The notes beneath the pieces are model-generated. The model was not told the origin of the DNA, made no database searches, and saw only the letters and a list, made by a program, of their open reading frames with translations. Shown here one piece after another: positions 14,404-34,922 of a stretch of DNA of 64,000 bases. Made by a program: the position numbers and the translations under genes. Each line of letters begins with the position of its first letter. Position 1 is the stretch's first letter. The stretch lies in the NCBI GenBank assembly GCA_014359765.1, contig JACIYT010000008.1:1-64000 (forward strand). The letters are read 5' to 3'. Origin of the DNA: Roseovarius sp. Lineage in GTDB: Bacteria > Pseudomonadota > Alphaproteobacteria > Rhodobacterales > Rhodobacteraceae.

Positions 14404-14480
14404 CGGGCTATGGCGCAGCCTGGTAGCGCGTCCGTCTGGGGGACGGAAGGTCGCAGGTTCAAGTCCTGCTAGCCCGACCA
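14404..14480 (+). tRNA. tRNA-Pro (anticodon GGG)
   Basis: cgggcta...tagcccg acceptor with encoded CCA; anticodon stem-loop TCCGT-CTGGGGG-ACGGA gives anticodon GGG; T-arm GCAGGTTCAAGTCCTGC. Confidence 0.95.
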
Positions 14481-32013: not shown

Positions 32014-32787
32014 TCAGAGCGCGGTCCAGCCGCCATCGACGCTGATCGTGGTGCCGGTGATCTGCGCCGCCGCGTCCGAGCACAGGAACAGCGCCGTGCC
32101 GCCGATCTGTTCGGTGGTGGCGAATTCCTTGGAGGGCTGACGCTCGAGCATCACCTTTTCGATCACCTCCTCGCGGCCCATGCCGTATTTCTCCATCGTG
32201 TCGGGAATCTGCGCCTCGACCAGCGGGGTGAGCACATAGCCCGGACAGATCGCATTGGCGGTGATCGGCTCGCGCGCGGTTTCCAGCGCGGTGACCTTGG
32301 TCAGCCCGACGATGCCATGCTTGGCCGCGACATAGGCGGATTTGTAGGGGCTCGCCGTCAGGCCATGGGCCGAGGAAATATTGATGATGCGGCCCCAGCC
32401 GCGATCCCGCATCATGGGCAGCGCGGCGGCGGTGGTGTGAAAGGCCGAAGTGAGGTTGATGGCGATGATCGCATCCCATTTCGCGACGGGAAATTCCTCG
32501 ATCGGGGCGACATGCTGGATGCCGGCATTGTTGATCAGGATATCGCAGCCGCCGGCCTTCTCGATCAGCGCGCGGCACTCGTCGGCCTTCGACATGTCGG
32601 CCTTGATATAGCGCGCCTGCGTTCCGGTCTCTTCGGCGATTCGGCGCGCCAGCGCGTGATCCTCCTCCGAATCGGTAAAGGAATTGAGCACCACATGCGC
32701 ACCCGCGCGCGCGAGTTCCTCGGCGATGCCGAGGCCGATGCCCGAATTCGATCCGGTGATGACGGCGGTCTTGCCTTTGACACTCAT
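32014..32787 (-). CDS. bdhA: 3-hydroxybutyrate dehydrogenase
   Basis: SDR; MSVKGKTAVITGSNSGIGLGIAEELARAGAHVVLNSF, NNAGIQHVAPIEEFPVAKWDAIIAINLTSAFHTTAAALPMM, CPGYVLTPLVEAQIP. Confidence 0.9.
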   Translation of the reverse strand: MSVKGKTAVITGSNSGIGLGIAEELARAGAHVVLNSFTDSEEDHALARRIAEETGTQARYIKADMSKADECRALIEKAGGCDILINNAGIQHVAPIEEFPVAKWDAIIAINLTSAFHTTAAALPMMRDRGWGRIINISSAHGLTASPYKSAYVAAKHGIVGLTKVTALETAREPITANAICPGYVLTPLVEAQIPDTMEKYGMGREEVIEKVMLERQPSKEFATTEQIGGTALFLCSDAAAQITGTTISVDGGWTAL

Positions 32788-32875: not shown

Positions 32876-32903
32876 AAAAAAAACCCCGGCACAAGGCCGG
32901 GGT
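32876..32903 (-). terminator. Rho-independent terminator
   Basis: Minus strand ACCCCGGC CTTGT GCCGGGGT TTTTTTT; perfect 8-bp stem, long T tract. Confidence 0.88.
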
Positions 32904-32951
32904 ATAGTCATTGAGGCAGGTTTCATACAGGCAAGAAACCTATCGAGCAGT
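32876..32951 (-). ncRNA. Putative ~76-nt small RNA (or attenuated bdhA leader) with its own promoter and intrinsic terminator
   Basis: Minus strand: TTGGAC-17 nt-TATAAG promoter (32986..32958), stem-loop AGGTTTC-TTGCCTGTAT-GAAACCT (32941..32918), then ACCCCGGC-CTTGT-GCCGGGGT followed by a T-run reaching eight T (32903..32876). No coding gene on this strand between the promoter and terminator. Confidence 0.65.
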
Positions 32952-32957
32952 GCCCCT

Positions 32958-32986
32958 CTTATAATCCTTCGCGCAGCCCAGTCCAA
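32958..32986 (-). promoter_or_regulatory. Sigma70-like promoter
   Basis: Minus strand TTGGAC-(17)-TATAAG; -10 matches 5/6 and -35 4/6 of consensus. Confidence 0.6.
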
Positions 32987-33065
32987 GCTAAAAGTTTGAA
33001 AAGACGGGAATCCGGATTTACCCTGGCGCCCAATGAAACAAGGCAGGGCAGGAATCGTTGCGCAA

Positions 33066-34922
33066 ATGAGACCGGATTTTTTCCGCGCGGGCCGCGCGCT
33101 CATCGCCGTTCTGGCGCTCATCTGGGCCGCGCCCGTGGCGGGGGCCGGGCCGTCCCATGGCATAGCTATGTATGGCACCCCGGCCCTGCCACCGGATTTT
33201 GTGTCGCTGCCCTATGCCAACCCGGACGCGCCCAAGGGCGGGCGGATCGTCACCGGCAATGTCGGCAGCTTCGATTCGCTCAACCCGTTCATCCTGCGCG
33301 GGACCCCGCCCTGGCAACTGGCGCAGCTGACGCATGAGAGCCTGATGGGGCGATCCTTTGACGAGCCCTTCACGCTCTACGGGCTTCTGGCCGAATCGGT
33401 CGAGACCGACGCGGCGCGGACATGGGTCGAATTCACCCTGCGCGAGGAGGCGCGATTCTCCGATGGCAGCCCGGTCACGGTCGCGGATGTGATCTGGTCC
33501 TACGAGACATTGGGCAGGCGCGGGCATCCGCGCTATCGCGGCTTCCGGGACAAGGTGGCGGCGATCGAGGCGACGGGGCCGCGCTCTGTCCGCCTCACCT
33601 TTGCGGAAGAGGACCGAGAGCTGGCGCTGCTGGCGGGGCTGCGCCCGATCCTGCAAAAGGCGCAATGGGAGGGGCGCGATATTGCCGAGGCGGGGCTCGA
33701 CGATGTGCCACTCGGCACCGGACCCTATGTGGTGACGGATTACGAGGCGGGGCGTTTTGTCACGCTCACACGCAATCCCGACTATTGGGGCCGCGATCTG
33801 CCGCTCCGGCGCGGCACCGCCAATTTCGACGAGATCCGGATCGAGTTCTTCGGCGATGACACGGTGATGAAGGAGGCGTTCAAGGCCGGGCTTCTGAGCT
33901 ATGTGCGCGAGTTCAACGCCGAGGCCTGGGCCACGCAATACGATTTTCCCGCCGTCCGTCGCGGCGAGATCGTGCTGAGCGAAATTCCGCATGGCAAGCC
34001 CTCGGGCATGACCGGCTTCGTGATGAACACGCGGCGGCCTCCGCTCGATGACTGGCGGGTGCGCGAGGCGCTGATCACCGCGTTCAATTTCGAATACATC
34101 AACGACACGCTGACCGGCGGGCGACAGCCGCGCATCACCTCCTATTTCTCGGGCTCGGACCTGGCGATGCGGCCCGGCCCCGCGACGGGGCGCGTGCGCG
34201 ACCTGCTCCTGCCCTTCAGCGACACGCTCCTGCCCGGCACGCTGGAGGGCTATGCGCTGCCCGTGGGCGACGGCACCGCGCGCAACCGCGCCGCCCTGCG
34301 CCGGGCGCGCGCGCTGCTGGAGGAGGCGGGATGGCGCGTCAAGGGTGGCCGCCTCGTCAACAGTGACGGACGACCGCTGGAACTGACGGTGCTTTTGCAA
34401 CAGGACGGGCTCGTGGCGCAGACCGGGGCGATGATGGATATCTACGCCGCGGCCCTCGACCGGCTGGGGATCGGCCTGCGCGTCGAGACGGTGGATCGCG
34501 CGCAATATGCCGAGCGCGAGGCGCAGTTCGATTTCGACCTGACGATGATGCGCCGCGCGCTCTCGCTCAGCCCGGGCAACGAACAGTTCTTCTACTGGGG
34601 GGCGGAACATGCCGACACGCCAGGCAGCCGCAACCTGATGGGAATGCGCTCGCCCGCGGCCGAGGCGATGATCCGCGCCATGGTGACGGCGCGCACGCAG
34701 GAGGAATTCACCGCCGCCACCCGCGCGCTCGACCGGGTGCTGACGGCGGGGCGCTATGTCATCCCGATCCACCGATATGCCGAGGGCCGTATTGCCCACA
34801 GGGCCGATCTGACCTATCCTCGCGAGAACCTGCCGATCTATGGCGACGGGATCCACTTTCTCCCCGAGGTCTGGTGGCAGGAGACACAGGCGACGAAAGC
34901 CGGAAACGACGAAAGCCGGTAA
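33066..34922 (+). CDS. Peptide/oligopeptide ABC transporter substrate-binding protein (family 5, YejA-like)
   Basis: Signal peptide; HGIAMYGTPALPPDFVSLPYANPDAPKGGRIVTGNVGSFDSLNPFILRGTPP; LGTGPYVVTDYEAGRFVTLTRNPDYWGRDLP. Confidence 0.9.
   Translation: MRPDFFRAGRALIAVLALIWAAPVAGAGPSHGIAMYGTPALPPDFVSLPYANPDAPKGGRIVTGNVGSFDSLNPFILRGTPPWQLAQLTHESLMGRSFDEPFTLYGLLAESVETDAARTWVEFTLREEARFSDGSPVTVADVIWSYETLGRRGHPRYRGFRDKVAAIEATGPRSVRLTFAEEDRELALLAGLRPILQKAQWEGRDIAEAGLDDVPLGTGPYVVTDYEAGRFVTLTRNPDYWGRDLPLRRGTANFDEIRIEFFGDDTVMKEAFKAGLLSYVREFNAEAWATQYDFPAVRRGEIVLSEIPHGKPSGMTGFVMNTRRPPLDDWRVREALITAFNFEYINDTLTGGRQPRITSYFSGSDLAMRPGPATGRVRDLLLPFSDTLLPGTLEGYALPVGDGTARNRAALRRARALLEEAGWRVKGGRLVNSDGRPLELTVLLQQDGLVAQTGAMMDIYAAALDRLGIGLRVETVDRAQYAEREAQFDFDLTMMRRALSLSPGNEQFFYWGAEHADTPGSRNLMGMRSPAAEAMIRAMVTARTQEEFTAATRALDRVLTAGRYVIPIHRYAEGRIAHRADLTYPRENLPIYGDGIHFLPEVWWQETQATKAGNDESR

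Follow-up and report, generated by a model that had tools for sequence, protein, structure and literature searches.

A probable stand-alone small RNA gene beside bdhA, conserved across the Rhodobacteraceae

Introduction

In a Roseovarius sp. genome (assembly GCA_014359765.1, contig JACIYT010000008.1), the region between the 3-hydroxybutyrate dehydrogenase gene bdhA and a divergently oriented solute-binding protein gene contains a short minus-strand stretch in which a promoter, a stem-loop and an intrinsic terminator directly succeed one another. This arrangement raises the question of whether the stretch constitutes a small RNA (sRNA) gene of its own or the leader of bdhA, in which transcription would end prematurely. 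An initial reading of the window (the whole 64,000-nt stretch of DNA that was analysed), made from its sequence alone, named both options and favoured an sRNA. Here, the minus-strand unit is confirmed as real, far beyond chance. Our overall reading, to which we assign a probability of about 0.68, is that of a self-contained, family-wide sRNA gene whose product would be bound by Hfq and would pair in trans through UGCCU motifs, with clpP as the best conserved candidate target.

Anatomy of the transcription unit

Direct reading of the minus strand returns TTGGAC-17-TATAAG, the first stem, the linker and the terminator, all at the coordinates that the sequence-only reading had assigned to them (Table 1). 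It had also pointed out that the terminator has no upstream minus-strand gene to serve, and indeed the neighbour at 33066 lies on the plus strand. The unit thus has its own promoter and its own intrinsic terminator, independent of its neighbours. Among four terminator-like sites in the 6 kb scanned, the terminator of the unit ranks first, and the promoter scores under the cut-off of a strict sigma-70 scan. A promoter alone is no proof, and it is the comparison across genomes that decides. The predicted 5′ end derives from the promoter spacing and the conservation of the region. Folding of the resulting 76-nt RNA gives a minimum free energy of −24.9 kcal/mol (z −3.7), with none of 200 shuffled sequences being equally stable, and the 5′ tail ACUGCUCGAU, the loop UUGCCUGUAU and the linker are predicted to be unpaired.

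The RNA also contains an ATG frame starting with MKPAS (ATG AAA CCT GCC TCA...), which on inspection has neither a Shine-Dalgarno sequence nor a conserved end. Its stop comes after 5 codons in Paracoccus and after 7 codons in Rhodobacter sphaeroides and others, and none lies inside the RNA of the window. A small open reading frame was rejected on both grounds, and judged by its sequence the RNA is non-coding.

Table 1. Features of the sRNA locus and its neighbours, in window coordinates
Feature	Position	Strand	Remarks
bdhA, 3-hydroxybutyrate dehydrogenase	32014..32787	−	TIGR01963, 372 bits vs cut-off 307; downstream, outside the unit
Family-5 ABC solute-binding protein gene	33066..34922	+	PF00496; divergent neighbour
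Upstream promoter block TTTTCAAACTTTTAGC	32987..33002	−	Conserved in relatives
−35 element TTGGAC	32986-32981	−	Read from sequence; family consensus CTTGG
−10 element TATAAG	32963-32958	−	17-nt spacer from −35
sRNA gene	32876..32951	−	Predicted 76-nt transcript
Predicted +1	A32951	−	A of ACTGCTCG; promoter spacing and conservation
5′ module ACTGCTCGATAGGTTTCTTGCCTGTATGAAACCTGCCTCA	32912..32951	−	40 nt, near-invariant
Stem-loop 1	32918..32941	−	AGGTTTC 32941-32935, loop TTGCCTGTAT 32934-32925, GAAACCT 32924-32918
First UGCCU motif		−	Inside the 10-nt stem 1 loop TTGCCTGTAT
Second UGCCU motif CCTGCCTC	32920-32913	−	End of stem 1 and linker
Linker GCCTCAATGACTAT	32904..32917	−	Predicted single-stranded
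Intrinsic terminator	32876..32903	−	8-bp stem and 8 T
Terminator hairpin ACCCCGGC-CTTGT-GCCGGGGT	32903-32883	−	T run 32883-32876

Conservation and distribution

The unit is widespread among relatives. With a 161-nt query it is found in 82 of the 85 genomes of the window's genus, including all 73 good assemblies, and a 151-nt query recovers it from 392 of 397 Rhodobacteraceae genomes representing 396 genera (349 of 350 good assemblies). A query taken from Paracoccus detects it in 124 of 125 genomes of that genus. In at least two of the weakest genomes, a contig edge falls inside the RNA (G476:C129:2-42 and G321:C161:1-26). Nearly all genomes searched have one strong match, present as a single copy. 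From 31 sequences a covariance model was built; applied to 387 genomes sampled across the class, it assigned 103–108 bits to all five Rhodobacteraceae drawn, among them the window's own genome; outside the family this class sample yielded at most 35 bits, with the core absent on inspection, and no credible match. The GenBank phage collection contains no copies of the RNA. On this sequence distribution, the RNA is both family-wide and family-restricted, with the limits of the family being those of the Rhodobacteraceae as delimited by GTDB.

The alignment of the 31 sequences contains an uninterrupted block of 39 invariant columns. The promoter spacer, the end of the linker and the terminator vary while the 40-nt module stays constant, and the most divergent members carry few base changes in the module, with a rewritten linker end and terminator and a promoter reduced to CTTG...TAT. 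The family consensus keeps the promoter block CAAACTTTTAGCTTGGA, the 17-nt spacer (the commonest length among relatives) and TATAA; of the upstream promoter block, many Paracoccus retain just CAAACTT and some relatives nothing. Loop, stems and promoter are conserved in relatives, and the outcome that the sequence-only reading had named as refuting its claim, a lack of conservation of both stems and promoter, did not materialise. Within the family, Paracoccus, Thioclava and several Rhodobacter (L083–L180, mostly Paracoccus) have a linker that is one base shorter (CTCATGACTTG) together with a reduced promoter block, a combination that serves as a clade marker, and the CAAACTT block is missing in a subgroup with TGTTGGACTCGG.

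Compensatory change, which the sequence-only reading had proposed to look for in the first stem, is found in the terminator stem and is missing from the invariant stem 1. Across 32 sequences, all nine modelled pairs of the terminator stem show two-sided changes, and the 52 covarying cells compare with 12.5 in shuffled alignments (0 of 500 shuffles reach 52), in an alignment that was fitted to the structure of the model and is hence biased towards it. In the same 32 sequences, stem 1 never changed on both sides and gains no covariation support; it rests on folding energy and invariance, not on covariation. Such an invariant, perfect 7-bp inverted repeat near a promoter is also what a pure DNA element would look like, with AGGTTTC/GAAACCT serving as the operator of a transcription factor and the terminator being incidental. 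We give this reading hardly any credence, as conservation extends beyond the repeat arms over the whole transcribed module, and a transcript is indicated by the covariation of the terminator at the RNA level and by the nearly constant distance at which it lies.

Relation to bdhA

Another alternative is a 5′ leader or attenuator of bdhA, transcribed from 32951 and subject to conditional termination before the gene. bdhA lies on the same strand and directly follows the sRNA in about 80% of loci; in the window, its ATG (32787) follows the end of the terminator by 89 nt, close to the 90 nt or so that had been estimated. Synteny across 189 loci argues against this reading. The solute-binding gene adjoins the sRNA in 179 of them, while 37 have no bdhA within ~0.9 kb downstream and still contain an intact sRNA and terminator, a count that includes a few loci that stop early at the end of the fetched stretch. 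Of these 37 loci, 35 have the solute-binding gene and two lack it; some have an intervening gene, and several extend for more than 5 kb downstream without bdhA. Conservation also ends at the T run, falling from 1.85–2.0 bits per column in the core to 0.09–0.29 in the stretch leading to bdhA. Furthermore, no alternative antiterminator pairing was seen, and the terminator stem is preserved everywhere by compensatory change. The attenuator was rejected on the basis of synteny and the unconserved gap before bdhA, and we regard it as very improbable, although partial read-through into bdhA is possible. Because many loci retain the RNA without bdhA directly downstream, the unit is better described as an independent sRNA gene. 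The stand-alone gene favoured by the sequence-only reading is thus strongly supported by synteny, conservation and terminator covariation.

Relation to known small RNAs

The same reading had called the RNA undescribed, which is correct with respect to Rfam and probably incorrect with respect to the transcript itself. At the sRNA in the window and in 20 homologous loci, all Rfam families score below their thresholds. The best score belongs to SorX (RF02784; 29.1 bits, gathering 46.6), and suhB/mmgR (RF00519) and SorY obtain 18.4 bits (41 needed) and 15 bits (111 needed), respectively. Membership in SorX, mmgR or a dozen weaker families was rejected, as all scores are below gathering and most of the weak matches rest on the terminator. 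Within the window, a single Rfam match clears its threshold, a tRNA gene at 14404-14477. SorY-like RNAs (RF02651; e.g. L080, L081, L082) occur in 365 of the 397 Rhodobacteraceae genomes at E <= 1e-4, and just one of these genomes passes the 111 bits that Rfam requires for gathering, a cut-off that appears far too narrow.

Among alphaproteobacterial sRNAs, suhB/mmgR limits PHB granules. It is a stand-alone sRNA, like the window RNA, which adjoins a 3-hydroxybutyrate dehydrogenase gene; however, the GCCC/GGGC stem and the CUCCCU motif of the suhB/mmgR model are absent from the window RNA. The best suhB/mmgR-like match of the genome (G000:C40:96162-96241, 31.3 bits with a cut-off of 41) lies on the same contig outside the window and is possibly an mmgR relative. 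The AbcR and CcsR types are alphaproteobacterial anti-ribosome-binding-site sRNAs with pyrimidine-rich unpaired motifs. The window RNA likewise exposes unpaired pyrimidine-rich motifs of the kind that pair with ribosome-binding sites, but these are UGCCU in loop and linker instead of CUCCUCCC or CUUCCC, and no sequence relation between these types and the window RNA was found in Rfam. SorX of R. sphaeroides shares the general layout of hairpin, CU-rich linker and terminator. It differs in locus and biogenesis, being released from an ompR-like 3′ UTR by RNase E (PMC6238624), whereas the window RNA has its own promoter.

The closest counterpart is Intergenic 134 of Paracoccus denitrificans, an 84-nt intergenic RNA (759993-760077, minus strand) that was seen in RNA-seq data and confirmed by RT-PCR (Gaimster et al. 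2016, PMC5107571). It was reported to be conserved across the Rhodobacteraceae, with the same gene context shared by R. sphaeroides, and to have matches in Rhizobiales and Actinobacteria as well (PMC5107571). Its numbering suggests a location on chromosome 2, and the RNA described here is encoded by the second, large replicon of P. versutus, P. pantotrophus and P. kondratievae. The two RNAs are of similar length (84 vs 76 nt) and both are conserved in the Rhodobacteraceae, whereas outside this family Intergenic 134 has reported matches and the window RNA has no credible one in the class sample. They are probably the same RNA. A literature search with the core sequence found no relevant paper.

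Another candidate for identity is StsR (RSs0827), an Hfq-associated sRNA of 72 nt from R. sphaeroides that is linked to stress and stationary phase (PMC8307010). It is similar in size to the 76-nt window RNA and comes from the same family, and R. sphaeroides carries the window-type RNA. One of the genomes could be recognised as R. sphaeroides 2.4.1 by its SorY match at 1,632,645, the published position being 1,632,642 (PMC6238624). In this genome, the RNA is found on the minus strand of chromosome 1 near 1,444,000, in the same gene context as in the window, and gene order and context are also shared between R. sphaeroides and P. versutus. As the RSs numbers of SorY (RSs1543), RSs1624 and SorX (RSs2461) scale with position, StsR would be expected near 0.86–0.88 Mb, about 0.57 Mb from the locus of the RNA. 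Judged by this position, the RNA is probably not StsR, and SorX and SorY are other loci with scores well short of their thresholds; its identity with StsR or any other named, characterised sRNA of the Rhodobacteraceae is therefore improbable. RSs numbers of the range expected for the RNA were not found in the literature. A stretch with a strong terminator in an R. sphaeroides-like genome (L184:3030-3139, around L184:3115; about 858,030-858,139), unlike the window RNA in sequence, would fit the expected place of StsR as a candidate.

Possible mode of action and targets

We infer that the RNA acts in trans. The genome encodes Hfq (G000:C37:5112, 114 bits) and the RNA gene ends in eight T, giving a U tail that suits Hfq; binding is predicted to occur through this tail and the linker. 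The two exposed UGCCU motifs, one in the loop (UUGCCUGU) and one in the linker (CCUGCCUC), would pair with purine-rich stretches containing AGGCA. These stretches would lie at or close to ribosome-binding sites, with repressed translation as the main outcome.

Target searches in the window's own genome (about 2.28 Mb reassembled, 2193 genes called) gave little guidance. Duplex ranking with the whole sRNA placed the native sequence no better than shuffles, 7-mer seed enrichment near start codons did not exceed a z of about 2, and scans with tail, loop and linker segments found partners that were neither clearly more numerous nor clearly better than in shuffled controls. Loop partners with low opening cost include clpP, at its ribosome-binding site (−15 to −4), and valS, a second target candidate. 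For clpP, which was chosen after the fact from this loop pairing in one genome, RGGCAG is found just upstream of the start codon in most of 30 genera. Pairing of these start regions with the linker has a mean of −13.5 kcal/mol, with 15 of the 30 genera at or below this value, and lies 5.8 SD below shuffled linkers, in orthologues that are not independent of each other. The corresponding means are −10.1 kcal/mol for clpX (1 of 29 at or below −13.5) and −8.7 kcal/mol for other starts in the same loci (0 of 23). The neighbours bdhA (−8.9 kcal/mol) and the solute-binding gene (−8.2 kcal/mol) fall, together with random genes of the own genome, in a range of −8.2 to −9.7 kcal/mol (z −2.3 to −2.8). 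Within the own genome, 193 of 2188 starts pair at −13.5 kcal/mol or better. This genome uses AGGCAGG fairly often as a variant of the ribosome-binding site, and inherited ribosome-binding-site sequence could therefore account for the clpP signal. By this pairing analysis, clpP is the best conserved target lead, with perhaps one chance in five of being a true one. Most clpP upstream regions (L350–L377) also share a common CACTAAGACT element about 45–70 nt before the start codon, an arrangement suggestive of a conserved promoter or regulator site.

For simple seed pairing, an sRNA would not require a 40-nt module that is nearly fixed as a whole, down to both stem arms. The RNA might instead act mainly via a protein or large ribonucleoprotein, in the manner of a decoy or of a 6S-like regulator, for instance. 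This would account for the joint fixation of loop, both stem arms and flanks over 39 consecutive invariant columns without compensatory exchange in the stem, and would agree with the lack of a clear excess of mRNA partners for tail, loop and linker in the own genome. We nonetheless consider it unlikely, as the RNA is short and combines a simple hairpin with long single-stranded stretches, shows no likeness to the protein-binding RNAs of Rfam, such as 6S or CsrA sponges, and contains conserved single-stranded UGCCU repeats that suit base-pairing.

Significance for the Rhodobacteraceae

Base-pairing sRNAs usually keep just a short seed over such evolutionary distances. Here, in contrast, an unbroken run of 39–40 bases has hardly changed in almost 400 genera. 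Among these are major marine bacteria of the Roseobacter group, denitrifiers (Paracoccus) and phototrophs (Rhodobacter). Because the RNA has no Rfam family, it is not routinely annotated; the covariance model now detects it in nearly every Rhodobacteraceae genome. Model hosts such as R. sphaeroides, R. capsulatus and Paracoccus carry it, mostly as a single copy, so it can be deleted and its role tested directly. A tentative and rather doubtful extension of the sRNA reading is that this is a core, family-defining RNA, in which the 40-nt module is constrained like a housekeeping RNA because one surface serves many partners. If so, these partners would be several mRNAs (e.g. clpP), contacted via the two UGCCU motifs, and possibly a protein. 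The RNA would then be a global regulator through which a basic process (proteolysis or translation, for instance) is tied to growth state, in a family that ranks among the most abundant of marine and soil bacteria.
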